Source: Metridium senile (Eukaryota; Cnidaria; Anthozoa; Actiniaria; Metridiidae). Taken from it: DNA of 64,000 bases. Shown piece by piece: positions 6,169-62,351 of the stretch. The stretch spans positions 34,710,768 through 34,774,767 of the forward strand of contig OX459095.1 of assembly GCA_949775045.1 (NCBI GenBank), given 5' to 3'. Within the stretch, counting starts at the first letter, position 1; every line of letters starts with the position of its first letter. The notes under the pieces are model-generated. The model saw only the letters and a program-made list of their open reading frames with translations, was not told the DNA's origin and made no database searches. Both the position numbers and the translations under genes were made by a program.

Positions 6169-7046
6169 TTAAGTAGAAAAACTATTTACTCGGATGTACT
6201 TAAGGAATGCATTGGACTTCCATCTGCCTAGAATTCGTATCTGTGAATCAGAGAGCCCTTGGGTGGCAGCATGCGATGCAGCCCCTATCCGAAAACTATG
6301 ACCCTTATAACGAGATGAATCAAGATTGCAATGAATCAGAGCAAGATTTAAAAATTGACAAAATTGCTCTCTTGATATGGCTTGACCACTGTTTGAATTA
6401 AAGAGTGGTCCAGGCGTGTTACCCCTAGCTCGTAAAAAATTCAGGATGATTTGCACCAGACAGATATTGTTTTGGCGATGTATAGTTATGGAAAAAGAGT
6501 TTTGATTATACTTGTGTTTTAAATAAAAAAATGTGACTTTAAGTGCCACGACTGTATTTTGTGCATCAACAAGCTCAGACAGCTGATGAAGGTGTAAGGG
6601 AGGGGTGGCATGACTGCCAGATCGAGTTGTCATCTCACTCACTCTTAAAAGGGCATAGAAAGCCAGAGATGCCATGGCCTTATATAGGGCAGCTTGGTAA
6701 TTTGTTTGCGTAACTGACTCGAAGGCTACTATGATTTGATGCAGAATAGGAAGTGTTATAGGTAAGCGGCTGTCAAGTCAAAAACCTAATTTTCCATAAC
6801 CCTTTAACATTTGCATTACAAAAAGACCTTTGCAGGGTTAGGTAGGCCGTAAAGCGTATGAGAATAGCCTATAGCAGATATATAAGTATTTACTGTGGAT
6901 GGTGCATAGTTCTGCTCGAAAAGAAAAGTTATGAAAAGAGCTAACATAGATGCTGGTATAGGTAATGGTATGGATACAATACCAAATACTGAGCTTAAAA
7001 ATAAACTACATGTATACAAATTCCATGCTCTCTTGTAAATTGGCAA
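6169..7046 (-). pseudogene. Tyrosine recombinase of the YR retrotransposon
   Basis: Two blocks. The upstream one (7046-6816) reads ASMLALFITFLFEQNYAPST then VNTYISAIGYSHTLYG, the SAM-like core-binding domain of phage-type integrases. The downstream one (6675-6169) is the catalytic domain: the first Arg in FYALLRVSEMT, then GHSFRIGAASHAATQG (His-x-x-Arg), LGRWKSNAF (Trp in the second His position, as often seen in this clade) and the nucleophile Tyr in LKYIR, ending six residues later. All catalytic positions are present. The enzyme would insert the circular cDNA by strand exchange. The 140-bp gap between the blocks contains stops and a frame change, so the gene is broken. Confidence 0.8.
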
Positions 7047-17228: not shown

Positions 17229-18657
17229 GCCGATTCATAGGCAGCCCAACTACTCCTTTTGAGGATTTTTTATTTTTCAATAAAGATTCAATGGAAAAAA
17301 ATGCGCGCGACTATTTTGGTTTCTTCGTTTGGCGCGCGCTTGTAGTCTTTGGGTTTCCTGTGGCGCGGTTGTAGATTATGGGGTTCCTGTGGTCAATCCC
17401 GCGGGAGACAAGTATATATTGTGACAAGGTATGAAACACGGTCACGTGATGGATCACAATTTCGCTACTATCTCATCACCTAAAAGACGAATTAATGATT
17501 TTTCTACGAATATGTAAACAAATAATCTTTCTCCAGATAACTTACGAATTTGAGTCTTCCATCTTTATTATATGACGAGAATTTCCTCTTGGACGCTCAA
17601 ACTCGCGATGGATCGATGTGTGCCCCAGGTAGCTGGGACACTTTTTCGTGAAGCGCTCGGGATTTTTCATTCGTTTGACATTCGTAGAGGTTTCGAGGAA
17701 GTCGTGAACTGTCGTGAGTGCACAAATTTTTCCGAAATCTTGGCGAATTTTCGGAATATTTCTACCTAAAACTAACCTGGAAATACTTCGTCCATCATAA
17801 AAGCTTTTTTTTAGGGATTTTCTTATACATAATGGCCGAAATTACTTTAAACACCGAGCAAAGGAAAGTGGTTGACCGTGTAATGTGTGGACACAATGTT
17901 TTTATCAGTGGTAAAGCTGGTACGGGGAAAACAATGTAGCTTGCAAGCTAATGAAACGATCGAGTTTGTCGTCAATAACATGTTTGTTGGCCGGTTCTTG
18001 CTGCTTTTTTGTATTCTTTTTAATTTCGAAAACAAAACTGTCAAATATAAACTTTTTTGATCCTTTTTCGCTCTTATTCAACAATAAAGTGACTTTTAGA
18101 ACTACCTGTTCTGTTAATGTGATGCATTGAGTGTTTTTGTTGTTTTTGCTTTGTTTATATCAGCTTTTTAACAAAAAGAAAATATTTACTCGACATTTTG
18201 AACCCCATTTTTAAAAAGTGAACAGGGAGCAAACATAACTTTTTCGCTGTTCATCCGTCTATTTGTTTTGTTTTGTTTTGTGTTTTGTTGTAAAGACGTC
18301 ATTCTATGTAATTTCGAAGACTGTTCGACCTACTCTACGAATGTCAAACGAATGAAAAATCCCGAGCGCTTCATGAAAAAGTGTCCCAGCTACCTGGGGC
18401 ACACATCGATCCAGCACGTGACTCGTGTTTCATGCCTTGTCACAATATACAAGGTACCTGACCCTGCTGACCATCCATCCCGCGGGATTGACCACAGGAA
18501 CCCCACAATCTACAAGCGCGCGCACAGGAAACCCAAAGACTACAAGCGCGTGCCAAACGAAGAAACCAAAATAGTGGCGCGCATTTTTTCCCCATTGAAT
18601 CTTTATTGAAAAATAAAAAATCCTCGAAAGGAGTAGTTGGGCTGCCTATGGCCGATT
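17229..18657. mobile_element. 1,415-bp TIR element with 7-bp target duplication and a PIF1 helicase fragment
   Basis: The element proper is 17236-18650. The left end CATAGGCAGCCCAACTACTC is inverted at the right end (GAGTAGTTGGGCTGCCTATG), and GCCGATT flanks both sides (17229-17235, 18651-18657), a 7-bp target duplication. The TIRs are long: about 320 bp match on the right (18330-18650) against two stretches on the left (17236-17450 and about 17600-17700), because the left arm carries an extra ~150 bp (17450-17595). Shared features include CCCGCGGGA, GCGCGC words and CCCCAGGTAGCTGGGACACT. Between the arms lies the start of a PIF1-type helicase. A 6-7 bp duplication is unusual: among known superfamilies it would suit Dada or Maverick, not hAT (8) or MULE (9). 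Confidence 0.85.
17832..17938 (+). pseudogene. PIF1-like helicase, N-terminal stub
   Basis: MAEITLNTEQRKVVDRVMCG followed by HNVFISGKAGTGKT is the standard opening of PIF1/RRM3-type helicases: the Q-motif-like 'LN.EQ..V...V..G.NVFI.G' and the Walker A box GKAGTGKT, at the right distance. The frame stops two codons after the Walker A threonine (TGT AGC reading TAG), so only about 35 of several hundred residues remain. An acceptor-like TTTTTTTTAG precedes the ATG by 20 bp. It lies between the inverted repeats of a 1.4 kb element, so it is most likely the surviving edge of a larger, helicase-encoding parent element after internal deletion. Confidence 0.65.
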
Positions 18658-20945: not shown

Positions 20946-21840
20946 ATATCTAAAATATCTAAATATGAATCCTGGCTGCAAATTCAACATTTTTATATTA
21001 CATTACATTAAATTACAATATTTAACAAAGTAATGCAAACCTGTCATTCTTGCAAATTTTACACCAGATGCATGAGTTGTTAGAGGTTGCAGACTTCATG
21101 CCATGGGCTAGCAAAAGGAATTTGTAGTCCCCACCCAAATAGAATTGAAGGTTAATATTATTTTTCCCAACTTTGATACTTTGCTGCTTGATGAGGCTGT
21201 TTACATCAGCAATGACATTGGCAAGGCTTGCTAGTAAGTTGTTGTAATCCTCATTAGTCTTGACAAGTGCAATAGTGTGGTTTCCTACCAATGTGCAAAT
21301 AAGAAGGGAGGAATGACAACACAATACCATTAATATGAAAGGATAAAGATTGACACATAATATCTAATACATGAATATCCCCATCAGTATGTTTATACTA
21401 AATTTATGTATCCATTTAAATTAATAATCAGCTTGAAAATCCCTTCTCCTAATTCCTATACTATTGATGTATGTTTGAGATGACTTACCATCGCTCGACA
21501 AAGCAGATTTACTGTCGTCAATTATGGAGAAGGAACAAACAAATATGTTGCTGGTTCTTGACAAAGCAGCACCATCTCCAGAGATCTTCACCTTTAGATC
21601 AACAATATTTTAGAGTATTGTAATCAAACTATTGTAATGAAAGGTCTAATTTTCCTCCAATTTTGTAATTATTATTGAAAATGCACCTATTTCTTTCAGC
21701 ATGAACACATTATCCTTTGCATTCTCTGCCTTGCAAAGTGGGCAGCGCTCTTCATTATCAAACCACCTCTCAACACAGTCTTGGCCGCCAATTATCCTCT
21801 GACAGCAATTTCCAACCATAACCTTCGATGAAATCCTGCG

Positions 21841-23460
21841 AGCAGAGCAGAGCAGAGCAGAGCAGAGCAGAGCAGAGCAGAGCAGAGCAGAGCAGAGCAG
21901 AGCAGAGCAGAGCAGAGCAGAGCAGAGCAGAGCAGAGCAGAGCAGAGCAGAGCAGAGCAGAGCAGAGCAGAGCAGAGCAGAGCAGAGCAGAGCAGAGCAG
22001 AGCAGAGCAGAGCAGAGCAGAGCAGAGCAGAGCAGAGCAGAGCAGAGCAGAGCAGAGCAGAGCAGAGCAGAGCAGAGCAGAGCAGAGCAGAGCAGAGCAG
22101 AGCAGAGCAGAGCAGAGCAGAGCAGAGCAGAGCAGAGCAGAGCAGAGCAGAGCAGAGCAGAGCAGAGCAGAGCAGAGCAGAGCAGAGCAGAGCAGAGCAG
22201 AGCAGAGCAGAGCAGAGCAGAGCAGAGCAGAGCAGAGCAGAGCAGAGCAGAGCAGAGCAGAGCAGAGCAGAGCAGAGCAGAGCAGAGCAGAGCAGAGCAG
22301 AGCAGAGCAGAGCAGAGCAGAGCAGAGCAGAGCAGAGCAGAGCAGAGCAGAGCAGAGCAGAGCAGAGCAGAGCAGAGCAGAGCAGAGCAGAGCAGAGCAG
22401 AGCAGAGCAGAGCAGAGCAGAGCAGAGCAGAGCAGAGCAGAGCAGAGCAGAGCAGAGCAGAGCAGAGCAGAGCAGAGCAGAGCAGAGCAGAGCAGAGCAG
22501 AGCAGAGCAGAGCAGAGCAGAGCAGAGCAGAGCAGAGCAGAGCAGAGCAGAGCAGAGCAGAGCAGAGCAGAGCAGAGCAGAGCAGAGCAGAGCAGAGCAG
22601 AGCAGAGCAGAGCAGAGCAGAGCAGAGCAGAGCAGAGCAGAGCAGAGCAGAGCAGAGCAGAGCAGAGCAGAGCAGAGCAGAGCAGAGCAGAGCAGAGCAG
22701 AGCAGAGCAGAGCAGAGCAGAGCAGAGCAGAGCAGAGCAGAGCAGAGCAGAGCAGAGCAGAGCAGAGCAGAGCAGAGCAGAGCAGAGCAGAGCAGAGCAG
22801 AGCAGAGCAGAGCAGAGCAGAGCAGAGCAGAGCAGAGCAGAGCAGAGCAGAGCAGAGCAGAGCAGAGCAGAGCAGAGCAGAGCAGAGCAGAGCAGAGCAG
22901 AGCAGAGCAGAGCAGAGCAGAGCAGAGCAGAGCAGAGCAGAGCAGAGCAGAGCAGAGCAGAGCAGAGCAGAGCAGAGCAGAGCAGAGCAGAGCAGAGCAG
23001 AGCAGAGCAGAGCAGAGCAGAGCAGAGCAGAGCAGAGCAGAGCAGAGCAGAGCAGAGCAGAGCAGAGCAGAGCAGAGCAGAGCAGAGCAGAGCAGAGCAG
23101 AGCAGAGCAGAGCAGAGCAGAGCAGAGCAGAGCAGAGCAGAGCAGAGCAGAGCAGAGCAGAGCAGAGCAGAGCAGAGCAGAGCAGAGCAGAGCAGAGCAG
23201 AGCAGAGCAGAGCAGAGCAGAGCAGAGCAGAGCAGAGCAGAGCAGAGCAGAGCAGAGCAGAGCAGAGCAGAGCAGAGCAGAGCAGAGCAGAGCAGAGCAG
23301 AGCAGAGCAGAGCAGAGCAGAGCAGAGCAGAGCAGAGCAGAGCAGAGCAGAGCAGAGCAGAGCAGAGCAGAGCAGAGCAGAGCAGAGCAGAGCAGAGCAG
23401 AGCAGAGCAGAGCAGAGCAGAGCAGAGCAGAGCAGAGCAGAGCAGAGCAGAGCAGAGCAG
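21841..23460. repeat. (AGCAG)n satellite, 324 perfect copies
   Basis: 1,620 bp of uninterrupted AGCAG pentamers; no variant unit was seen. Because 5 and 3 are coprime, each frame cycles through a 15-bp period, and no frame on either strand contains a stop: the plus strand can read S-R-A-E-Q repeats, the minus strand L-L-C-S-A repeats. It begins inside the 5' part of the RING exon of the minus-strand gene. The perfection implies very recent expansion or an assembly that extended the array artificially; true length cannot be trusted from one sequence. Confidence 0.97.
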
Positions 23461-24837
23461 ATTCCTTGACCTTTCACGCACTTTACAGATTAACCCAGTA
23501 ATCAACAAGATTAATGATGGTCTTTAAATGTCCTTTAACTTTTTTTTTTGACATGTGCTAATAGCAACACATTTGAAGTTTTTTGGATTAAACTTACTAC
23601 AGCCACAAGCGCCGCCGACATAATCGTAGATGCCGCAAGTCGCCATTGCTATTATCAAGTTGTCATTTAAAGTGTCCTTATTGCTTTAAGTAATCATTAT
23701 TAACTAGTCCATTGGGAAACCACGTTTTGTGTTTTTAAACCACGATGTCAGATGGACATTAGCGGCGACTAATGTTGGATGACACAAGTAAACAACCGGG
23801 ATTCCTGTGTGTAGATCCCGGCAAAATTTAATGATGTTTGATTTCAAAACACTCAAAACTTCTTAACCATACAAGTTTACTAGTATAAATATAAACAACA
23901 CATAAATGGTATTAAGATGACAGGGTTGATTGTTTGGATTAGTTTTATGCTAGCGTTTATGACTGTTAATTAGCATGAACACGACAGCCGTCTGTGGAGC
24001 TGTAATTATATCATATATAGAAAAGCAAACAAAATCTTGTAAAACTATTCAGAATGAAGTAATAAATCAATTAAAACATTATTCGTAGCCAGCGCTTTTG
24101 AACATTTAAAGATAGTAGGCAGAGAAGCAAATTTTGATATTTTTTTTGCTCATGTTATTCGAGACAGAATGTCACGCAATACCGTGACAGTGGGGAATTT
24201 TCGGTCCAAAGGCATGAACATTCAGGGCTGCCAGAGGTTTGCGTTTTGGTAGCCCAAAAATTTTATTGCATTTTCTTGAAGTGGAAAGATAGTACATCGT
24301 CTGGATTAGAGCCGCACATGTTGAATCATAGTGGCAATTTGTTTTTTTTTTGAGCCTCAATTTTGTGTTTTTTTGTCTTTCGAAAAAAATGCAAAAATCC
24401 TTCATATTGAAAAATCGATAAAATATTCAAATATCAACTGATTCAAAATTTAAGTCCACAGAGACAGCATATTTATTGGTCTTCTATGTCACAAATTATT
24501 TCAGATCTGTGGTTAATTCTTAAGTTCGGAACAGCCTGTTTACGAAGGGTACCAAAATCCCGTAAAAACCCCACCGGAAGCCGAAATTCAGAAAAAGTCG
24601 ATTTTCTCCTAAAATAATTATTTTTCAAATCTCTAAATTTTTTTAGGTTACTAGCTCCCTAAATGCTATCAGCTGGCAAAGTTTGAGCAATTTGAATTTT
24701 TGGCCTATTGCACGCTCTGGTCGATATTCTCGGACGGCCTCTCTTAAGACTGTACATGCATTTTGTAATTATACTAATTAATATATGCATGTGTACAAAT
24801 ATACATATAATTATACATATATAATAAGCATGTGGCC
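23461..24837. other. No gene recognised
   Basis: The first 40 bp right of the satellite read ITGLICKVRERSRN on the minus strand, possibly the rest of the RING exon. The remainder is AT-rich and without a supported exon. Confidence 0.5.
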
Positions 24838-42471: not shown

Positions 42472-42963
42472 TAGTGGGGCGGATAAGCGTAATTTTTTTG
42501 AAGAATTGTGCACTTTTTGAAGAAAGCACCAAATTTTGCACAGAGGTAGCTTATGATGGCCTTTAAAGATCTAGATATGGAGCCATCGCAAAATATCTCT
42601 ATTTTGCCATTTAAGGGGGTATTTAGCGTGGAAACGAGGCTAAAACTATAAATATCTCTAGAAACGGTTTTTCCTTTTAATATCACTTCCTTAAATCTCA
42701 GTATAAGTATATTTATGTGTAGCAACCTTAATATCCTGTTAAATTTGTCATTCTACCATTTAGGGGATATTACATGGAAACGAGGCTAAAACTAAAAATA
42801 CCTCTAAAAACTGTCTTTACACACTATTACGCCTTGTTTAAAGCTCAATATGAGTTTATTTATGTGTAACATACTTTATATCAGCTGAAGTAAGCCATTC
42901 TTTCATTTATGGGATATTGCATGGAAACGAGGCTGACCATTTAAAACTATATTTAGCTTAAAT
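42472..42963. repeat. Left TIR of the 5.3-kb element
   Basis: Composite of three ~147-bp subrepeats, each with TGGAAACGAGGCTAAAACTA-like text followed by TATCTCTAGAAAC/ TACCTCTAAAAAC, a TTTATGTGTA(A/G)CA block and a GGGATATT(A/G)CA block. The outer 150 bp (end to GGGGGTATTTAGCG) are single-copy. Confidence 0.9.
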
Positions 42964-43119
42964 ATATGCAAATAGAACATCAAGTAACATGTATAAGAAT
43001 ATATATAGTCTAGAAAAATATGCGACTAAAACTAATTAAATCTATTGCATTTTCGAAAAAAGTTGATAACATATTTTGTGTGAAATCCTTAAAGTTGTTT
43101 GGTTCAATCCTTTGATTAA

Positions 43120-43432
43120 AGGGGCACTTGGATGAAAACGCCCCGTTTTTTGAAAGTCCGAATAATTCAAGTATTTGAGAATAATATGACTCAATTATGA
43201 TTATGAAAACATGATTGGCAAAAATTTTAGCCTGGGAGCCACTCGCAGTTGAGAAATTTTGGTTTAAAAACTATAAGAACAATAGGGTTGAGTAAATGAC
43301 GTCATAATTTTTATCCGCCAATTTTGACTGTGAAGAAAATATGTTGCTTGGCTACTATTGGGGCCATATAGATAAGTTTAACGAAGTTTCAAGTCATTTC
43401 CAATTTTCATCGATTTTCATCCAAGTGCCCCT
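43120..43432. mobile_element. 313-bp TTAA-flanked MITE nested in the 5.3-kb element
   Basis: The left end AGGGGCACTTGGATGAAAA is inverted at the right (TTTTCATCCAAGTGCCCCT), and TTAA flanks both (43116-43119, 43433-43436). A TTAA target indicates a piggyBac- or Kolobok-type mover. It lies just 8 bp beyond the stop codon of the host element's gene, so it is younger than the element. Confidence 0.9.
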
Positions 43433-43443
43433 TTAAGTTATTA

Positions 43444-46400
43444 TTATGTACTGTCAATATAAAAGTTAATCTTCAACACAGTGGCCTTCACATGCACAAA
43501 GTGCAGTGCACTATCTAATCGATTGACATGGTGGAGCTGAGACTTGAGATGAGGTATGAGAACATAGTCAGAGTAATCCTGGAATGTTTTCACAGCATTT
43601 GATGGTTTGAGCATATTGATGATTGCTGCACCATCCAAGATCATTGCTTCTACCTTCTGCCTGCCTTCCTCAAGACTTGAGAATGGAAGGCAGTCAAGCA
43701 GATCGGACTTCTTAGAAGAAATACGTAGTTTCCCGTTAAGAGAAATAGATGGTGGGCATCCTTGGTTTTCATGTTGAAAAAAGTCATCAAGATCTTCATT
43801 TCTCGTCTGGCAAGAGATGAAAAGTCTTGAAAACAGAGCACAGTCAGTTTTAAGAGAAGAAATTTGTTGTTTTTCCTTAGATAGTGGCTTTCTAGTAGGG
43901 GTTTTAAATAATGCCAGCTTATTCTTCTTGATAGGGTCGCATACATTCTTCTCTTGATTCTCTAAACGTTCTTTTTGAAAGTTGTCAAACTGGCTTTTTC
44001 CAAGTGCTTCAATTTCTTTGACGGTCTTTATCACGTCGACAGCAGCTAGGTCGCGAGTGTCAAGCACGAGAAGATCTTTGCTCTTCTCTGTAAAGGGATT
44101 CCCCATTTCTTCAACCACTGTTACTAACGATTGAACTTCTTTGGCAAACTTTGATTGCAGACCTTTTGATGTTTCATGGTGCTTTCCTATCCATTGTGTT
44201 TCATCTTCGATTCCACTGAATGATGCTTCAAACTCTGTAACCATTCGTGCAATTTCAGGTCCGGCGACCATCCAACGTCGTAATGCTTCTGGACTCTCTG
44301 TAAGCCCTACGGCGCCACCATCTCCTTTTACTAGAGCATTGTTTTGTTCATGCGCCTGGTCAATAGCAATTGCAGAGAAAGCGTTGGAACTCTTCTTTAC
44401 AGTGAAGCTTCCTTCATTCAGTTCTTGGTAAACCTGAGGGAGTTTATGTTGAAGTACCTGGATGTCTTGAAGATAAAATGGCAACCATCTTGCATAATTA
44501 ATGTGATTAAGAGAAAACAACCATGGGACGATTTTGTGTAGAACACTAATGTACAGGGAAAAGTTTGATTCTCTCAGTGAGCGCACAAACAGCAAATAGA
44601 TTAATTCGAGCTGGAGTGTGGTGTACCAAAATTGAAACTGCGGGTAAAGAGTTGAATGATCACTACACCAATCATCGAATGACATTGACTGCGCAATTAA
44701 GCCTTTGTCCTTGAACATATGGAAGGCTTTATTCAGCAAGCAGAAAAGAGCACTTGCTGTTACCTCATGTGCATGCCTTGCACGTTTAACGTTTGATCCC
44801 TTTAGAAAAGCATTTGCAACACCAGGTGAGGCGATGTTTGCTTGAACTAAAGCACTTGTCCATCCACTGTCTTCAAGCAAGTCGCCAAGAACTGATAAAG
44901 TGGCCATTTCGATATGAAGGCCGCCTGGGATGATTACAAACTGCTGCTCACCATGCGTATCTGGCCAATTCCACTGTATTTGCTTAGCCACACTATAAAG
45001 GGGCTGATCTACAGTGATCACTGGAATTTGACCAGGGTTCAGAAACTCGATTGCGCTTTTGATTACATTCATAGCATGACGTATCATGGCCACAGACTTA
45101 GCTTCATAGGAAAACAATGGAAATAAGGAAGAAATTGCAGGTAGCGTAGAACAGTCACCTTGTTGCATGATTGAATGATAACCAGACCAAGTTACAGAAC
45201 ATTCAGGTTCAGGTTGATTGTTGTCTTGTGTTGTCCTTGTTACCCTTTCAACTGCACGAAGCCATTCATATTCTTCTTTCTTTGCTTTCTCAAATTCACA
45301 GGGTCTTTGCTCTCTTTGAGGTATATTAGCTTTTGGGGCAGTTTCCGCAGTGTTCCTCAAAATACAGGGTGGCACTTCAGCATACCAGTCTGGAAGGGAA
45401 CAAATAGATTTTGTGGATAATTGACCCCCACACTCCATAACTGTGACATCTCTCTCCTGGCCTGTATTTGTGCTATCCATATTCTGGAAGAGAGAAATGC
45501 CAGTTCCATGGAAAGCTCCTTGTGCTGTATTTGAACTGGGATTGTGGTCGATGTTATCAATCGCGGCAGTAGTAAAAAGATCTTTTCTCAATTTGGTCGG
45601 ACATACGACACCTTCTTATTCAAATCGTCGGCAAACAGCATTTCCAACATCAGTGGAGATTGACAACACTCTATCATATGATATTGAAATGCCGAGTTTA
45701 CTTAGAGAATCCACTAGATCCCGCTTACGAGTTTGAGCATGAAGAGAGACACCTATGTATATCGGTAATGGTGTTTCTCGGTCTTTGTTATGGCGAACAT
45801 AATTTGAATTATCTTCTGGTTTACGCGAGTAGCAATTAAACTGCAGCAGCTGAGCAATGGTTAAAGCAGCTTGCGATGAGTCGATTTTCATCTGATTCTG
45901 GATGTTTGGGCCATAAAGTATCATTTTTACCAATGATTTTAGAGATGACGGAGTAGATTCTTCCTGACAATCTGCTTTGAACTCGCCGTCAAAATTAAGC
46001 TGCATTGACAACATCTCCTTCCTTACAATCTCAGCTGCTTTTGCAAGATGGTTGGCTTCAGTATCAGTGTTTGACTCGAGGGCTTTTCTGAGAGCTATAC
46101 CTATCTCGCTGTCAAAAGCTAGATAAGTATCCCGACCTTGCGGGTAGGCTTTCAGATCTGGAATGCTTACAAGTATCCTCTCTTTTAGTCGGGTGGATTG
46201 TATAGTGGTGTCTACGTAACCAAACTGCTTCAGTCGAGATGAGTACATGCTTGAGAGATCTTTTAACTTCAACACCGATACAACTTCGCTTTCATCCCTC
46301 CTTTCTTCTATATAGGCAACTAACTCTGCCAGAATAATGCCATGAATGACTTTATCAGCGTGATGTTTGGCATCAACTTTGTTTTCTGCAGATCTTGCTC

Positions 46401-46968
46401 TATTGTATAAAGCTGTTAAGCATGTTTTGTGATAAACTGCATCGATTGCAACCATGTCACCGGCACTTAGTTTTGCTAACAGCTCATTATCTTGCAAAAG
46501 TAAAGCACAATCACGGACTCGAATATTTATACCAAGTGTGCTTACTTTATGCATTGGCTCATTATTATCGGGCTTGTCACAAAAGAAGCATTGTTCTTTA
46601 GAATGACCACATTCTGAAGGTGTCTTTTTCCTTTTAGGATATACCTCTCTTGCTTCATCTACAGTGACATCTGAGAAACGCTTTTTTGCTCTCTTGAGCT
46701 TGGTGTTGTTATATTTGAGAGCACAGCTCTTGTGCCAGCAGGCATTATTTCTTCTCAAGCATTCCTCTACGCCATTTCCCTCATCCAGTATATCTAGGTT
46801 AACATCTATGATATTAGGGTTCAGTTCATGAAAGATCTGAAGATTAGTCGCCAAGGATTTGTATCCCGAACCAACATCTGTTCGTTTCGACTTCGCTGGG
46901 CACTGAAGTGATTCATTTTTACTACTCTGACATAAAACACACTTTTTCCAGTCGATAACATTTTGCAT
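43444..46968 (-). pseudogene. Large transposase-like protein of the 5.3-kb element, one nonsense codon
   Basis: A minus-strand reading of about 1,174 codons from a likely start MQNVIDWKKCVLCQ (46968; an in-frame upstream Met at 47034 adds 22 hydrophobic residues) to 43444. N-terminal C-x2-C (CVLC, then HKSCALKYN and CFFC) suggests zinc binding. Later blocks: DTYLAFDSEIGIALRKAL, PLPIYIGVSLHAQTRKRDLV, LFTTAAIDNIDHNPSSNTA, FHGTGISLFQN, HINYARWLPFYLQDIQVL, IAIDQAHEQNNALVKGDGGA, VGLTESPEALRRWMVAGPE. This is a well-populated unnamed family in cnidarians and fish. The DNIDHN and DQAHE residues are candidate catalytic acids, by inference only. A single TAA at 45616-45618 interrupts one otherwise continuous frame; downstream text (EGVVCPTKLRKDLF) continues in register. 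Otherwise intact, so recently active. Confidence 0.85.
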
Positions 46969-47275
46969 TATACAATGTGAAACCAAGATTACTATTAAAT
47001 ATTTCAAGAACATTCGAAGATACTTACAGATCACTCAGAGAGAAAATCCAAAATGGCCGGCTCTAAATGTCTTGCAATGAATGATGGGTAAGCCCCAAAG
47101 CATGATGGGTAGATCCCAGTCTCCAAACAATAAATAAGCATAAAAAGATGCAATACCACAAAAACAACAAAATATTTCTAGCGTTAAACTAAAGGATATT
47201 CTTTTTCTTTGATTTTTACATCTCCTCATTATCAATTGATAATAATTTTCAATGATATGTATATTTTGCATATAT

Positions 47276-47756
47276 TCAAGCTAAATATAGCTTTTAAATG
47301 GTCAGCCTCGTTTCCATGCAATATCCCATAAATGAAAGAATGGCTTACTTCAGCTGATATAAAGTATGTTACACATAAATAAACTCATATTGAGCTTTAA
47401 ACAAGGCGTAATAGTGTGTAAAGACAGTTTTTAGAGGTATTTTTAGTTTTAGCCTCGTTTCCATGTAATATCCCCTAAATGGTAGAATGACAAATTTAAC
47501 AGGATATTAAGGTTGCTACACATAAAGATACTTATACTGAGATTTAAGGAAGTGATATTAAAAGGAAAAACCGTTTCTAGAGATATTTATAGTTTTAGCC
47601 TCGTTTCCACGCTAAATACCCCCTTAAATGGCAAAATAGAGATATTTTGCAATGGCTCCATATCTAGATCTTTAAAGGCCATCATAAGCTACCTCTGTGC
47701 AAAATTTGGTGCTTTCTTCAAAAAGTGCACGATTTTTCTGCTTATCCGCCCCACTA
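47276..47756. repeat. Right TIR of the 5.3-kb element
   Basis: Inverse of 42472-42963 with few differences (the outermost 40 bp differ by a short indel: GCGTAATTTTTTTGAAGAATT versus a shorter GCAGAAAAATC form). It carries the same three subrepeats. Confidence 0.9.
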
Positions 47757-49192: not shown

Positions 49193-49340
49193 TATAACGG
49201 TTTGGGTTCCCTGTGGAATCCCACAGGCCCGCAAGGGTTAGCTGGGAAAAGACATTCTTCGTTGTGAAACACGTTTTGTTGTTCTCGAATTAAAATGCGA
49301 TTTATGCACCAGAATCTGGCGTAGTTCATCTGAATTCACA
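49193..49340 (+). repeat. Left LTR
   Basis: Begins TATAACGGTTTGGG (the canonical TG is mutated to TA here but intact in the right LTR) and ends GAATTCACA. Confidence 0.95.
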
Positions 49341-49450
49341 TTGGTGACCCCGACGTAAAAGCAAGCAACGGCACAGCGAAGTCAGCTGCTTCACAACGCT
49401 TGGAAACGTGCTCACTTTGACGACTTTTCGCCGCTCGCTGCTTCGACAAG

Positions 49451-50142
49451 ATGCCTGATCAAGAGGAAAACAAACCCGAAGTTTCCTGTCACGCTGTTGC
49501 CTTAAAGCTACCTCAATACTCAAATACTCAAATACTCAAATATGGTTCGCTCAAGTGGAAGCACAGTTTGCTACTCGGAAAATAACAAATCAAGACACGA
49601 AATTTCATTATGTCGTAGCATCTCTTTCACCCGAAGTCGCCGTCGATATTCGTGACCTTCTTATCCAAAAGCCGGCAGAAAATGCTTATGATGAGCTGAA
49701 AAAGAAACTCCTAGAGAGAATAACAACAACAATAGCACAAAAACTGCAGCAATTATTAGCGACAGAGGAGTTGGGCGACCGTAAACCTTCCCAACTCTTG
49801 AGGCGATTCCAACAGCTATTGGATGACAGCCCCACCGACCATCCATTAGTTTGTGAGTTATTTTTACAGCGTTTACCGCAGCACGTACGTCAGCTACTTG
49901 CCGTAACGTCCAATGCTACAACACCTCTAGAGGAGCTGGCGAAGCTCGCCGACAAAGCCATGGAGGTGCAAGGTAACAATATAAACGCCGTTCAGCGTCC
50001 ATCTGAGTTAGCAGCTTTCGACAACTTGCAAGCCCAGTTGAACGAGATAAACAACACCTTAGCCACACTGACCCAAAAGCGGACAAAGCCTGCTGGACAA
50101 CCAACAGCGAGCTTGCAAACTGGCAAACAACCCCTGTGTTGA
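49451..50142 (+). pseudogene. Gypsy gag
   Basis: The start ATG at 49451 opens MPDQEENKPEVSCHAVALKL. Soon afterwards a run of the 9-mer ATACTCAAA, three times (about 49514-49541), throws the frame; in the second frame WFAQVEAQFATRKITNQDTK resumes, then FHYVVASLSPEVAVDIRDLL, LLRRFQQLLDDSPTDHPL and LFLQRLPQHVRQLLA, the standard Gypsy capsid. Near its end LC, a TGA at 50140-50142 where Trp is expected, and YHQRFG mark the Cys/His motif of this clade. The microduplication and the stop disable the gene. Confidence 0.85.
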
Positions 50143-50173
50143 TATCACCAGCGATTTGGAGGCAGGCCCGTAA

Positions 50174-50761
50174 GTGTCAGCCACCGTGTTGCCAGGGAAA
50201 CGACACAGTCAGCACGTAAAAGCGACCTACATGCTGACAGAAACAAAGAGTCGCTTATTTTTCGTTATAGACAGTAATTCAGGAAAACAGTTTTTAGTTG
50301 ACACTGGGGCAGAAGTTAGTGTTTTACCGTTTTACAAACAGGGACCGCCCCTCCCACCAAGTTCGATTTATCTTGAAGCTGCAAACCACAGCAGAATTAA
50401 AACGTATGGTACACGTTCAGTTAACTTAAACCTTGGCTTACACCGAAAGTTTCAGTGGAAATTTATTGTTGCAGACGTTAAATTTCCAATTCTTGGAACA
50501 GACTTTCTGCGCCAATATGGTTTACTTGTTGATGTTAGTAAAAGCAGGCTGCTTGATGTTACAACTTACCTAAGTACTCAAGGCTTAACAACCCAAGTAT
50601 TCTCAGTCAGCCCGATAACTGTGGGATCACACTCAAAGTATCACAGAATACTCAACGATTTTCCGTCGCTAACCAGGGTTACCCAGGACATGCATGTTAA
50701 ACACAACGTAACTCATCATATCATTACAAGAGGACAACCAGTGTATGCCAGACCTAGGTGA
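50174..50761 (+). pseudogene. Gypsy aspartic protease and start of RT
   Basis: About 195 codons. FLVDTGAEVSVLP carries the DTG active site of a retroviral-type aspartic protease; KFPILGTDFLRQYGLLVDV is the conserved C-terminal ILG block. The C-terminal HHIITRGQPVYARPR is the known lead into RT, where a TGA at 50759-50761 replaces Arg in the RRLAPE motif. The protease would cut the polyprotein. It overlaps no other gene and is otherwise intact. Confidence 0.85.
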
Positions 50762-51523
50762 CTAGCTCCAGAGAAGATGACAATAGCACGTACCGAATTT
50801 AGCAATCTCATGGACCTGGGTATCATTCAACCCTCGAAAAGCAACTGGTTTCACCTTTGCACATGGTGCCTAAGAAAAAGCCCGGAGAATGGAGACCCTG
50901 TGGCGATTACCAAGCTCTTAATGACATAACCGTACCAGACCGGTATCCAATTCCACACATTCAGGATTTCACATCAAGTCTACACGGCACAACCGTTTAT
51001 TCCAAGGTGGATTTAGTTCGTGCATATCACCAGATTCCTGTAGAACCCGGCGATGTGCACAAAACGGCACTGACCACACCTTTCGGAATGTTTGAATTCA
51101 CTCGAATGCCATTTGGCTTGCGTAACGCAGCTCAAACATTTCAGGATCATTGATCAGGTCATTCATGGACTAGACTTTTGCTATGGTTACATTGATGACA
51201 TTCTTATAGCTAGCACAACACCACAAGAACACGAACAACATCTGCGAATGTTATTCCATAGATTGGATCAATATGGACTCATCATCAACCCAGATAAGTG
51301 CGAGTTCGGAAAATCCGAGTTAACCTTCTTGGGCCATCATATCAGCAAGGAAGGCATACAACCACTGCACGAGAAAGTCCAGGCAGTTCTGGATTTTCCT
51401 CTTCCTGAATCTACCAAGAAGCTTAGAGAATTCCTTGGTTTGGTAAACTTTTACCACAGATTTATACCTGAGTGTGCTACACTACAGGCCCCACTCCTTA
51501 GTTGTCTAACGGAGGCAGACTGA
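50762..51523 (+). pseudogene. Gypsy reverse transcriptase
   Basis: [20 protein letters not shown] then, after a small deletion at about 50853, [79 protein letters not shown]; a second frameshift at about 51145; [20 protein letters not shown] (YIDD active site), IINPDKCEFGKSELTFLGHH and KKLREFLGLVNFYHRFIP. Catalytic Asp residues are KVDL and YIDD. Two frameshifts disable it. The Gypsy-type FLGH and LGLVNFYHRF blocks are unambiguous. Confidence 0.9.
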
Positions 51524-51674
51524 CGCAGAAGGTCACTGCATTAGACCGATCAACTCGTCGAACATTTTAACAAACTAAAAAAAGCCTGAGCAGCAGCAGC
51601 ACACCTCTCTCGTTGGCATCCAACAGCCGAAACATGTCTGATTGTAGACGCGTCAGACGTCGCTGTAGGTGCAG
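51524..51674 (+). pseudogene. Gypsy RNase H, N-terminal part
   Basis: In one frame DQLVEHFNKLKKA, a TGA at 51587-51589, AAAAHLSRWHPTAETCLIVD and ASDVAVGAV. The VDASD acid is the first RNase H catalytic residue. The block is interrupted after GAV by the MITE at 51677 and resumes with [14 protein letters not shown] beyond it. Confidence 0.8.
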
Positions 51675-51676
51675 TA

Positions 51677-52490
51677 TTAGGGACTTTTAGCACCAGGACG
51701 GGAGACGTGACTACGGGGCATCGGAAGTAATTTTGTCATTATGAGCATGCGCAGATCAATTGGTCTCAGATTACTTTCCCGTCGAGCGCAATCGAGAGCG
51801 TGTACTCAAGGGTTTTGCCGTAGTGCCATTACGTGAAGCTTTTTCTCACAATTATTATAGGTAAACCTTTTTCTACCTTCAGCATATTGAACACAAGTTC
51901 AATTGAATTATTTTGAAATCAATTTGACGTCCTCAGATTACTTTCCCGTCGAGCGCAATCGAGAGCGTGTACTCAAGGGTTTTGCCGTAGTGCCATTACG
52001 TGAAGCTTTTTCTCACAATTATTATAGGTAAACCTTTTTCTACCTTCAGCATATTGAACACAAGTTCAATTGAATTATTTTGAAATCAATTTGACGTCGA
52101 AAATTAACTGATTAAAATCAGTTAATTTTCGACGTCAAATTGATTAAAACCAATTTCTGACTAGTCTGGTAATCTCATCTTCGCGCCGGAGTTCAAGTCA
52201 AATGACTTGTAAGCTTCGTAGCTGAAATCAGGGTTATTGGATGTGTTCTGTTCTGTTAGAACTATGAATTTCTCATCATCAATATCTCCATGTTAAAATG
52301 ATTCCAGGAGAGCTTCTCTTGTCTGTTAAAATGAGTCCATTTCGATGTTTTTGTAAAGCGTTTTAAGCGTGCCGTAGTTTAATGCTAAAAGACACGGAGA
52401 CGAGAGGACGGACGGGGTCTTAATCCCCAGTCCTATCTCGGAATCGACGTCGCTGTCCTCCACTCCTGTCCTGGTGCTAAAAGTCCCTAA
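51677..52490. mobile_element. 814-bp non-autonomous DNA element inside the Gypsy RNase H
   Basis: Ends TTAGGGACTTTTAGCACCAG and its inverse CTGGTGCTAAAAGTCCCTAA, 28 bp with one mismatch, with TA on both sides (51675-51676, 52491-52492). If TTA is counted as target rather than end, a Harbinger-like GGGAC end results, but then the right flank reads TAA, so the TA reading fits better. Inside: a 167-bp tandem duplication (about 51767-52100; CAGATTACTTTCCCGTCGAG at 51767 and 51934) and a 62-bp perfect hairpin. No coding capacity. It must be younger than the Gypsy copy. Confidence 0.9.
52084..52145. repeat. Perfect hairpin, 30-bp arms, 2-base loop
   Basis: AATCAATTTGACGTCGAAAA then TTAACTGATT, loop AA, then the exact inverse. 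The arm begins with the end of the adjoining 167-bp tandem repeat, so the hairpin probably arose by an inverted copying event at that edge. Confidence 0.95.
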
Positions 52491-52492
52491 TA

Positions 52493-53595
52493 CAACAGAA
52501 GGTCAACGGTGACTGGCAACCACATGTTTTTTTTTTCTAAAAAAACTTAAGCCAGCAGAAACTCGATACAGCACATTCGGAAGAGAGTTGTTGGGGATTT
52601 ATCTAGCAATCAAACACTTTCGACACCTTCTAGAAGGCAGGAACTTTTATGTTCGTACTGATCATAAACCACTGACATACATCTTCAATAGCAATTCCGA
52701 TAAATACACACCCAGAGAAGTCCGACAAATGTCCTACATCTCAGAGTTTACTACAGACATCCGTCATATCAAAGGTAGTTCTAATGCAGCAGCCGATGCA
52801 CTCTCACGATTGACCATAAATTCTGTAGAGTTAAGCCCAAGTTTAGATTATGACTTGCTCGCTGAAGTTCAGGCCGACGATCCTGAGATACAAGGCATCA
52901 TACACAACAGCAACACAGTACAGTTCAAGGAAGTACTCTTCACAGGTGCAACAAAACCTGTATTGGGCGACATTTCTACTGGTACTCCAAGACCATTTTT
53001 ACCTAAAGAATTTAGAAGACCAATGTTCAATTTGTTACATGGACTGTCACACCCTGGAATACGTGCTTCACAGAGACTTGTTACATCTCGTTTCATCTGG
53101 CCCAGAATAAATACCGATGTGCGGAAATGGTCTAAGGAATGTGTGGCATGCCAGCGATCAAAGGTTTACCGTCACACAGTTACACCTCTTGGTAATTTTG
53201 ACCTCCCAAAGCGCAGATTTGACAATGTACATATTGATCTGGTGGGTCCCCTACCGTCAGCAGAAGGATACAGATATGTACTTACGTGTATCAATCGTTA
53301 CACACGTTGGCCGGAAGCTATACCAATAAGTGGTATTACAGCAGAAACTGTGGCTAAAGCTTTTGTCTCCGGATGGATAGCAAGATTCGGAGTTCCGTCA
53401 ACAGTAACTACAGATAGAGGAAGGCAGTTTGAATCACAACTGTGGAAGGAACTTAGCAAACTTCTAGGAACCAAACAAGTTCGTACAACCGCCTACCATC
53501 CAATCTCAAATGGAATCATTGAACGGTTTCATCGACAACTCAAAAGTTCTCTCAAAGCTAAAACAGGCGGGACCTGGGTGGATGCTCTGCCCTGA
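52493..53595 (+). pseudogene. Gypsy RNase H (rest) and integrase
   Basis: After a slip in a T10/A7 run near 52529-52548, [35 protein letters not shown] (RNase H Asp), [18 protein letters not shown] (final RNase H Asp). The integrase follows: the HHCC zinc finger [20 protein letters not shown] / [12 protein letters not shown], then the DDE core: [40 protein letters not shown]. All three catalytic acids are present at the expected spacing. At 53593-53595 a TGA stands where this family has Trp (ALP-W-hLLG), ending an otherwise open 336-codon frame. Confidence 0.9.
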
Positions 53596-54168
53596 ATCCT
53601 TCTAGGAGTGAGAAGTGCTTTCAAAGAAGAACTGCAAGCTTGCACTGCTGAACTTGTTTATGGAACTGTTTTGTGTTTACCTGGGCAATTGCTCAACTAT
53701 GAGTCGCAAGACTTAGTGGTTCCAACCTCGGAATTTGTTAACAAGCTCAAGAGCTGTATGCAGTCGCTCAAAGCAACACCTACAAAACATCGCTCTCGAC
53801 CGGTCTACATCCACAAAGCATTGGACACTTGTACACATGTTTTTGTCAGGCAGGATCATGTCAAAAAGCCATTGGAGCGACCTTACAAGGGGCCGTATCG
53901 TATACTGCAGCGTTACTCTAAGTGTTTCAAGCTTGATCTTGATGGGCGTCAAGACACAGTATCCTTAGATCGTCTCAAACCTGCATTTATCGAGACTTCC
54001 GCTGACAACGAGCTACAAAGCAACACAGAGGCTTTAAGACAGTCCGTTCAGCAAACCGCAGTAAATCATACTAAACCACAAGCAACCAAGGATATCCAAC
54101 CCCTTCCTGCATCCTACCAAACACGTAGTGGAAGACTCGTCAAAGCACCACAACGTTACATGTTGTAA
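53596..54168 (+). pseudogene. Gypsy integrase C-terminal module
   Basis: In the same frame as the integrase: ILLGVRSAFKEELQACTAEL, YGTVLCLPGQLL, then VFVRQDHVKKPLERPYKGPY, RILQRYSKCFKLDLDGRQDT and VSLDRLKPAF. This is the GPY/F-like module ('PL.RPY.GPY.hL.R..K.F.h...G....VS.DRLKPA') of this Gypsy clade. The protein ends RSGRLVKAPQRYML, a classic terminal block. Only the TGA at 53593 separates it from the integrase. About 12 bp beyond the stop comes the polypurine tract. Confidence 0.9.
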
Positions 54169-54183
54169 CTAGAGGGGGAGTAC

Positions 54184-54331
54184 TGTAACGGTTTGGGTTC
54201 CCTGTGGAATCCCCCCGGCCCGCAAGGGTTTGCTGGGAAAAGACATTCTTCGTTGTGAAACACGTTTTGTTGTTCTCGAATTAAAATGCGATTTATGCAC
54301 CAGAATCTGGCGTAGTTCATCTGAATTCACA
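54184..54331 (+). repeat. Right LTR
   Basis: Begins TGTAACGGTTTGGG, ends GAATTCACA; four differences from the left LTR (positions 2, two in CCCACAGG/CCCCCCGG, one in GGGTTAGC/GGGTTTGC). Its last base lies 17 bp before the F-box start codon at 54349. Confidence 0.95.
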
Positions 54332-54348
54332 TTATAAAAGCATCATAG

Positions 54349-59732: not shown

Positions 59733-60381
59733 TTATTGTGACGGTTGCTTGCGCTTTCTTGGACTTTCTGGGGGAAACGCCAATACAAAGTTCTTGATGG
59801 CATTAAGGTCTTTGTATTGTTGTGTAAGCCCTGTCACAATCTGGTCGTCTATGACCTCCAATAACCGTGCTGAAGTATCATCACTTCGCAAAACCTTGCC
59901 GAGTTGCATATAGTAGCTCGCCGTATGTGCCCTTTCCCAGCCGACATGGCTCATTATTTCTGATAGTGCAGAACCTGACAGGGCAAGCGTTATAGCACAA
60001 CCCGACCTGAAACTATGGGCGGTCTCACCCTCATCCATACCTGCCTCCTTAAGGTATCTTTTGAGTCTGGCGTTCATGGTCTCAGAGGATACTGGTGACG
60101 GTGTGATTTCACCTTGGTTGTTGGTCGGTTGGAAAAGAAACCCTTCTGTTAGGTCGACCTTCATTGCTCGCATAGAGGACATGTACTTCTCGATTGCAGC
60201 GACAGGGCATATCTTGATATTAGAACGTCTCCTAATCCCAAAGAGGTTAGAGTTGTTTCCACGTAGCGTTTTCCCCCATGTGTGGTTAAAGAGTAGGCCA
60301 TCATCATTGGGGAACCTTAGCATTTCATTGGTCCTAACCTGACCAAGATCGCCAGGTCTATCCCCAGAGAAGAAAAGTGTT
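59733..60381 (-). pseudogene. Tyrosine recombinase of the DIRS-like element, catalytic part
   Basis: The minus strand from the TTAA junction reads TLFFSGDRPGDLGQVRTNEM (Arg of box I in GDRPGDLG), LRFPNDDGLLFNHTWGKTLR, NIKICPVAAIEKYMSSMRAM, RLKRYLKEAGMDEGETAHSF, RSGCAITLALSGSALSEIMS, HVGWERAHTASYYMQLGKVL and ends PRKRKQPSQ. His-x-x-Arg (HSFRSG), the second His (HVGW) and the Tyr (TASYY) are all in place. The frame is open throughout. The apparent N-terminal extension to 60467 comes from the inserted palindrome, not from this gene. Confidence 0.9.
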
Positions 60382-60385
60382 TTAA

Positions 60386-61825
60386 GGAGGCTCGGGTCAG
60401 TATTTTTCGCGCTCACCCAGCGACGTTTGAAAGGCCGTAGTTCCCGCGTCAGAGGGTATTTTGACAAGATTTTTTAACACATGTCTACATATAGAACAAA
60501 GTTTTTAAAAAAGTTATTTTTAATAAAATCGATAATATTTTAGCCGACAAATGATAACGCCGCCGAATTTCTATGTAGCCTATTTTTGGGAAAAATCGAC
60601 CTAAACTTTTAAAACCACATAGCCTACTTTAAAGCTGTTACCTAGGTCAACAATCTGGCAAAGTTTAAAAAAAATTCATCTCACCGATTTGGAATAAAAA
60701 CGGGTCATTTTTTTTCCTAGCAAAAATTCATTGTTTTATTATGTTTACCGATAACAACAGACTTTGAAGAGATAAATCCAAATCCTTACAACCAGGTATT
60801 AACAGGACATTTGTCTATATTGTCTGTGAATTTCAACTAATTTAGTCTACGGGATTTCTTTTGGGAAAGGATACAAATCGGCAAAAGTTTGTCAGTTTTT
60901 GTGCAAAACTTCTAATTTTTACTTTTGAGCACGCTAACAAAAAAATCTGATAACTTTTTTTTATTTTTTAGCTATCAAAAGTTCACCATATTTTCAATTG
61001 CGCCTCTAAATTTTATAGTGATTGAAATATTTTGAGGCGGTCAAATAAAATTCCGAACGTGGGTATATTTGCCTTCGCTTTGCAGCGGCCAGTTTGTTTT
61101 TATTTTCGAGTTATACATGATTTGCATGCTTTTGCTTTTTTATACCCACGTTCAGAATTTTATTTGACCGCCTCAAAATATTTCAATCACTATAAAATTT
61201 AGAGGCGCACTTGAAAATATGGTGAACTTTTGATAGCTAAAAAATAAAAAAAAAGTTATCTCAGATTTTTTCGTTAGCGTGCTCAGAAGTAAAAATTAGA
61301 AGTTTTGCACAAAAACTGACAAACTTTTGCCGATTTATATCCTTTCCCAAAAAACATCCCATGGACTAAATTTGTTGAAATTCACAGACAATGTAGAAAA
61401 ATGTCCTGTTAATACATGGCTGGAAGGATTTGGATTAATCTCTTCAAAGTCCGTTGTTATCGGTAAATATTTTAAAACAATGAATTTTTGCACTGAAAAA
61501 AATTGTCCCGTTTTTATTCAAAATCGGTGAGATGAATTTTTTTTAAACTTTGCCAGATTGTTGACCTAGGTAACAGCTTTAAAGTAGGCTATGTGGTTTT
61601 AAAAGTTTAGGTCGATTTTTCCCAAAAATAGGCTACATAGAAATTCGGCGGCGTTATCATTTGTCGGCTAAAATATTATCGATTTTATTAAAAATAACTT
61701 TTTTAAAAACTTTATTCTATATGTAGACAAGTGTTAAAAAATCTTGTCAAAATACCCTCTGACGCGGGAACTACGGCCTTTCAAACGTCGCTGGGTGAGC
61801 GCGAAAATTACTGACCCGAGCCTCC
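60386..61825. mobile_element. 1,440-bp TTAA-flanked palindromic (foldback) element
   Basis: Arms 60386-61067 and 61141-61825 are inverse copies, near-identical over about 683 bp, around a 73-bp spacer. TTAA flanks both sides (60382-60385, 61826-61829). The outer ends are GGAGGCTCGGGTCAGTA / inverse. Removing it with one TTAA joins the recombinase text DQAYFK to TLFFSGD in frame, which proves insertion into a working or recently working gene. TTAA points to a piggyBac- or Kolobok-type transposase. The arms have no long frame of their own; they differ slightly (for example GAATAAAAACGGGTC versus GACAATTTTTTTCAG near the inner third). Confidence 0.95.
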
Positions 61826-61829
61826 TTAA

Positions 61830-62351
61830 AGTATGCCTGATCTCTAACGATGATATATGTCTTGAGCCATTATAGCCAACTTGTCTACAAACAGTGGTGT
61901 GGCCTGTGAAGGGGTGATGCCAGCGGTTGCCTGCTCTTCCTTAATGAGTTTGAGATACCTACAAACTAGCCTAGACGCTGCAGGGTTCCCCAAGCCCAAG
62001 CCCTCCTTCATTGTAAAAAGCCCGTAACTTCTCGATCAAGGAATCTACTGAGCCCGCAGAGAGACGCAAAGGGCAAGAGCAATCAAAGGATCCCTTCAGG
62101 CCTCAATGGGGACATTCCAACGCGTGTACTTGGGTCTTTCTATTCTGATCTTTCCATACCAGGAAGCGTACAATATCAAGAGAGGATGCTGACAAAATAT
62201 CCTTTGGTGTCTCCAAGGAACGCAAGAACAGTGATAACTGAGAACTCAGCCGGGATTTCTGACAGTCAAAATTGGATTGTTTTGCAAACAATGTATGTAA
62301 CCAGTTGTCAATGGGCTCGATGTCAATATCCAGGGTTTCCCCAGGTCCCAA
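61830..62351 (-). pseudogene. Tyrosine recombinase of the DIRS-like element, N-terminal part
   Basis: LDIDIEPIDNWLHTLFAKQS, LFLRSLETPKDILSASSLDI and VRFLVWKDQNRKTQVHALEC, then a TGA at about 62101, and in the same frame FDCSCPLRLSAGSVDSLIEK, LRAFYNEGGLGLGNPAASRL, KLIKEEQATAGITPSQATPL, FVDKLAIMAQDIYIIVRDQA and YFK up to the palindrome. 'TP.DI......DI.RFL.WKD..GKT.VH...C' is the N-terminal zinc/SAM-like domain of DIRS recombinases. One nonsense codon is the only defect apart from the insertion. Confidence 0.85.

Follow-up and report, generated by a model that had tools for sequence, protein, structure and literature searches.

The window, the 64,000-bp stretch of Metridium senile DNA that was analysed, contains a 1,415-bp element (17236–18650) with GCCGATT directly outside both ends. 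Its terminal letters are CATAGGCAGCCC...GGGCTGCCTATG, the right end being the reverse complement of CATAGGCAGCCC. A perfect target site duplication (TSD) and long inverted ends starting CATAGGCAGCCC had been put forward in the original prediction, made from the sequence alone, and both are borne out: the 7-bp repeat is exact, and the terminal inverted repeats (TIRs) consist of outer arms that are 86.8% identical over 243 columns with 23 gap positions, and of inner arms that pair at 97% over 86 nt (Table 1). About 150 bp of the left arm (17456–17603) have no counterpart in the right arm. The subterminal direct repeats of the left side have a mirror set at 18493–18552; these 29/30-bp repeats (CACAGGAA..CC) are candidate transposase-binding repeats.

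Table 1. Features of the element and its target site (window coordinates).
Feature	Position	Strand	Basis or remark
Left TSD copy GCCGATT, 7 bp	17229..17235	.	Sequence reading and survey of copies
Left outer TIR, starts CATAGGCAGCCCAAC	17236..17455	+	Arm alignment; 40 near-full genome copies at 96–100%, window copy included
Two 29-bp subterminal direct repeats	17334..17391	+	Reverse complements start CACAGGAA..CC; resemble the element's own end
Left inner arm of inverted repeat	17604..17689	+	86 nt, 97% complementary to 18333–18418
PIF1 helicase N-terminal stub, then TAG	17832..17939	+	35 codons through Walker A (GKAGTGKT)
Junction of further internal deletion	18000..18003	.	Other copies break here, mostly with ~450–460 extra bases
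Right inner arm of inverted repeat	18333..18418	-	Pairs with left inner arm
Right outer TIR, finishing GTTGGGCTGCCTATG	18408..18650	-	Arm alignment
Right TSD copy GCCGATT, 7 bp	18651..18657	.	Sequence reading and survey of copies

Between the arms, an open reading frame (17832–17936) encodes the 35 residues MAEITLNTEQRKVVDRVMCGHNVFISGKAGTGKTM, with TAG next, and ends just past the Walker A motif (GKAGTGKT), in agreement with the framed PIF1 N-terminus that had been predicted. Taken alone, this stub matches PF05970 with 21.0 bits (E 2.8e-4), below the curated cut-off of 25.9 bits, and other P-loop families score nearly as high on the 35 codons. Against the PDB it gives 11 matches up to E 1, with an AAA-family ATPase at the top and mostly proteins bearing the name PIF1 below it (E 0.002–0.06). 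A transposase is absent from the window copy itself.

Copies of the element were sought in the 389-Mb assembly (G000) that contains the window. Of 335 candidates for a left-end query (17229–17500, 272 bp), 40 were scored and gave at least 43 matches; of 401 for an interior query, 40 were scored and gave at least 75. With so many genome copies, a chance origin of the window element is excluded. All interior-query matches other than the window copy break at query positions 311–314, and the copies listing both stretches usually have about 450–460 additional bases between them, which indicates that the window copy carries one internal deletion more than the common form. This longer form was confirmed in the sequence of one locus (L003), and 17 of 20 copies measure 1,813–1,878 bp. 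Among 20 distinct copies with both ends inside the fetched locus, a count that leaves out the L050 entry because a wrong left end had been paired there, 17 are flanked by an exact 7-bp duplication, as anticipated; the exceptions have one mismatch (L043), two mismatches (L054) or no duplication (L040).

The 35-aa stub, used as a query, found 92 matches in the genome (all 138 candidates scored). Eighty-four of the matched places, the window's own included, belong to the window stub family (77–100% identity); 25 of them have a stop inside the match, three match residues 1–20 only, and at none of the 84 is there an open frame longer than 118 aa. The remaining eight are 53–60% identical to the stub, seven being PF05970 places and one (C1:56919326) being unexplained. 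The original prediction had considered that copies sharing these ends might lack PIF1, which is contradicted by the 84 places, or that PIF1 might be a separate insertion, which is contradicted by the copies read, where the same order is found inside the left arm, and by a larger relative described below, whose whole PIF1 gene begins just inside the TIR. A 15-mer end pattern covering the window family and its sister families occurs 5,261 times, partly owing to a tandem array, versus once for the reversed control. At G000:C1:2340068–2346038, units of about 86 bp holding the CACAGGTAGCCCAAG end motif form a tandem array, apparently a satellite built from sister-family ends.

A genome search with PF05970 gave at least 109 matches (150 of 161 candidates scored). 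At one of these loci (L017) a long PIF1 frame lies near a CACAGGCAGCCC end, and extension along the contig from there closed an 11,517-bp element at G000:C8:2199129–2210645, hereafter called the C8 relative, with TIRs of about 710 bp (97% over 724 columns) and the TSD ATGAAAC. On its plus strand, a frame of 857 aa begins at the inner TIR edge. PIF1 (PF05970) is matched at 3.7e-28 within the first 720 residues of this frame, a UvrD_C_2 match is below cut-off, and the C-terminal region after PIF1 is helical and without a Pfam match. On the minus strand, convergent to the PIF1 gene and within the same TIRs, lies an exon with a match (1.9e-8) to PF21789, the family for the C-terminal part of the RNase H domain in P-type transposases. 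Of the first 15 bases, 13 are shared between the ends of the window element and of the C8 relative; inward of these roughly 15 bp, the two TIRs have little in common apart from AT-rich runs. The C8 relative, the only two-gene element closed at both ends with a TSD, supports the proposal that the window element arose by deletion from a larger TIR transposon encoding a helicase. The further expectation of a full PIF1 gene and a transposase within the same TIRs is borne out in part: the C8 relative has ends of the same terminal type, while an intact parent of the window's own CATAGG subfamily was not found in the 35-aa stub search of the assembly.

The original prediction left the superfamily unnamed. 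Joined translations of the C8 exons match PF21787 (3e-9) and PF21789 (3.6e-8), both over cut-off. Across its full length the joined peptide shares 64% identity with an annotated protein of Porites. As a search query it found 72 proteins, many from cnidarians and two bearing the UniRef label 'Transposable element P transpo...'. A profile made from 30 of these 72 relatives matches the Drosophila P transposase 6p5a at 1.5e-13, and three acidic positions, which I take to be the catalytic ones of P transposase, align in this match. The predicted model of the Porites protein P0121 (pLDDT 89) gives TM 0.72/0.78–0.79 against 6pe2/6p5a, the next fold being Hermes at TM 0.25. The GTP-binding insertion domain PF21788 is matched weakly in P0121 (17.9 bits, cut-off 24.8) and is not listed for the joined C8 exons; the corresponding region is aligned to 6p5a in the relatives' profile. 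No THAP domain was matched in the N-side exon, in the joined exons (a model that begins after the first C8 exons), or in P0121, P0122 and P0149. On the evidence of the C8 relative and its protein relatives, the transposase of this lineage is an RNase H-type DDE enzyme of the P superfamily. TSDs of 7–8 bp are those of this superfamily, and they measure 7 bp in 17 of 20 window-family copies, in the C8 relative and in a shorter relative with TATTTTC (L010).

The transposase exon matches eight distinct loci in the genome (nine matches, of which two are parts of a single locus; all 15 candidates scored). A convergent PIF1 gene is present within 5 kb at six of the eight (C8:2.20 Mb, C2:16.54 Mb, C2:1.44 Mb, C2:1.41 Mb, C15:5.07 Mb and C1:39.51 Mb), at distances of 0.6–5.0 kb, the C8 distance being counted from the start of the PIF1 match (the nearest matched stretches are 2.9 kb apart). 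The chance of finding six of eight within 10 kb is about 2e-12, a bound calculated for independent placement and at most 124 PIF1-type matches in the genome. The other two loci, C8:1315678 and C1:10885176, have no PIF1 match within 10 kb among the matches listed. A genome search with PF21787 gave 12 places, none of them among these eight loci, and all but one of the 12 lack a PIF1 match within 10 kb among the matches listed; P-type transposases without an adjoining helicase therefore also exist in this genome. One two-gene locus, L080, has an 813-aa frame that matches PF05970 at 3.8e-22. The helicases of these relatives have the SF1 core, with Walker A at one end and the C-terminal motifs at the other, whereas the window copy keeps its first 35 codons only. 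At L080 (3323–3838) and at L082 (5695–5985), a separate frame lies downstream of PIF1 on the helicase strand; its Pfam matches (SAP-like, LETM1-like) are all below cut-off, and the frame could represent a third gene or else a missing exon.

Two further elements with ends of this kind also hold PIF1 and differ in architecture. L010, 1,936 bp long, has TIRs of at least 174 bp that enclose a PIF1 frame of 273 aa. At G000:C8:15059775–15065560 (L022/L023) lies a fold-back element with arms of 2,361 bp that are 99.8% identical; each arm includes the N-terminal half of PIF1, a match to the C-terminal domain is in the loop, and the flanks repeat CTTTTCGT (8 bp). An element at C15:5066716 starts with the same end; its right end was not found among the matches listed, which leave out the two-mismatch entries for C15. 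The differences between these forms indicate that TIR length varies in the lineage and that TIRs can grow into the helicase gene.

Outside this genome, a query comprising PIF1 and the C-terminal region found 561 proteins at E ≤0.001 among 7,996 candidates scored. Among the best 120 of the 561, proteins of Exaiptasia, Oculina and Actinostola cover at least 94% of the query, with partial cover in Paramuricea (61–71%) and Stylophora (45%). The highest identity to the C8 helicase among the named proteins listed is that of a protein from the sea anemone Actinostola, 73% over 38% of the query. In Paramuricea clavata, a PIF1 protein (P0106, helicase part only) and a transposase (P0156) are each on a contig of 34,987 bp, which is a match of size and not a map. 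This protein search suggests that some cnidarian gene models named 'ATP-dependent DNA helicase PIF1' may be transposon genes.

The window element is thus very probably a non-autonomous, internally deleted cut-and-paste copy of the P superfamily, derived from a lineage with PIF1 beside the transposase and moved in trans by a P-type transposase. Full-length members would be bounded by long fold-back-like TIRs with CA...TG ends and 7-bp TSDs, and would contain two convergent genes. One, starting just inside one TIR, would encode a PIF1-type SF1 helicase to which a conserved helical C-terminal domain is fused; the other, on the opposite strand, would encode an intron-containing P-type DDE transposase. 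The small copy would have retained both TIRs and the first 35 helicase codons. As both its ends are present but it encodes no transposase, its movement requires an enzyme supplied in trans, and the 7-bp stagger, the CA...TG ends and the shared terminal bases point to a P-type transposase, which would make a 7-bp staggered cut at the target. Internal deletions in P elements are usually attributed to interrupted gap repair, and PIF1 helicases promote strand-displacement synthesis in break-induced replication. Because of this activity, the most likely guess is that the helicase helps to repair the gap or to re-synthesise the element after excision. A more ambitious hypothesis, which I regard as possible and on balance doubtful, is that in a THAP-less P lineage across Cnidaria, PIF1 with a C-terminal domain dedicated to it takes an active part in transposition: the helicase would drive a strand-displacing repair, similar to break-induced replication, that restores or re-copies the element, and template switching would lead to extreme fold-backs such as the 2,361-bp arms and to the many deletion derivatives.

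Other origins of the element were weighed against a P-superfamily derivation. Small TIR elements with gene pieces are well known, the stub is just 35 codons long and the assembly yielded no intact parent, all of which would fit a piece of a host PIF1 gene captured by a MITE or a Pack-MULE-like element that is unrelated to the mobilising transposon. However, a sister element contains an entire PIF1 frame just inside the TIR, with position and orientation matching those of the stub, PIF1 stands beside the P transposase at six of eight loci, and the protein combining PIF1 with the C-terminal domain recurs in other cnidarians. Capture is largely refuted by these observations and is quite improbable.

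It is very improbable that another TIR superfamily, of Mutator type, mobilises the window family while the P transposase belongs to its relatives only. The idea draws on foldback elements with 8–10-bp TSDs assigned to Mutator in the Tetris report (PMC4079207), whereas 17 of 20 TSDs here are exactly 7 bp, as given for Galileo, of the P superfamily, in PMC4168063, and the terminal bases of the window element match those of its P-type relative. The type of helicase might suggest a fragment of a Helitron or Helentron, and the genome also has PIF1 matches lying in open frames as long as 2906 aa, which could be read as Helitron-sized. Precise 7-bp TSDs and long TIRs are nevertheless both present, a P-type transposase adjoins the helicase of the C8 relative, and no Rep family is among the best 25 of the 37 families matched by the C8 helicase frame, which leaves this origin hardly credible.

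Within the P superfamily, Drosophila P and THAP9 elements resemble the present lineage in the transposase fold (6p5a/6pe2), target duplications and deletion derivatives. Target duplications, deletion derivatives, P-MITEs and common internal deletions are described for them in PMC7776569 and PMC1562414. They differ by 8-bp TSDs and short TIRs (reported as 13–31 bp); they have a THAP domain, which no scanned protein of this lineage showed, and one transposase gene, and are not known to encode a helicase. Galileo of Drosophila, as described in PMC4168063 and PMC3688188, has long fold-back-like TIRs containing internal repeats, TSDs of 7 and sometimes 8 bp and a P-type transposase; the word 'helicase' is absent from both papers. 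The likeness to this lineage lies in the long TIRs, the 7-bp TSDs and the P-type transposase, and the difference in the THAP domain of the Galileo transposase, none being detected in the scanned proteins of this lineage.

Helicase-encoding DNA transposons form a second group for comparison, of which AcademH is reportedly a helicase-bearing lineage of Academ. KolobokH is a lineage of another superfamily that encodes a RecQ helicase (PMC9587614). Both share with the present lineage the possession of a helicase; they differ in belonging to other transposase superfamilies, and the KolobokH helicase is RecQ, not PIF1. Helitrons and Helentrons share the PIF1 type of helicase with this lineage. They differ by their rolling-circle Rep-helicase proteins (PMC6431247) and are not known to have TIRs or TSDs of the kind found in the window element.

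A limited literature search (titles and abstract openings) found no PIF1-encoding P element; a family deposited in Repbase may exist. P elements themselves are known, and on this search the pairing of PIF1 with a P transposase is an apparently undescribed variant. P elements, a textbook case of transposons, depend on repair by the host once they have excised. If true, a helicase of its own in a P lineage would mean that the element itself encodes part of the repair half of transposition. Such a natural system would make it possible to test the role of a helicase in gap repair, in the formation of fold-backs and in the origin of MITEs.

Several other features were observed elsewhere in the window. 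At 42500–47738, inverted repeats of 474 bp (98.7%) surround two neighbouring frames (723 and 472 aa) on the minus strand, neither with a Pfam match at E 0.001; this is probably another, rather young, TIR transposon. At 49195–54333, direct repeats of 148 bp (98%) surround RNase H, integrase zinc-binding and integrase core domains, which identifies an LTR retrotransposon, probably of Gypsy type. A tyrosine-recombinase-type frame (PF00589, 4.3e-10) at 59736–61830 overlaps a pair of inverted repeats of about 690 bp (60381–61067/61141–61830), and a second recombinase frame, sub-threshold, lies at 6172–6777. Finally, a short tandem repeat of about 1.7 kb at 21803–23527 is open in all six frames.
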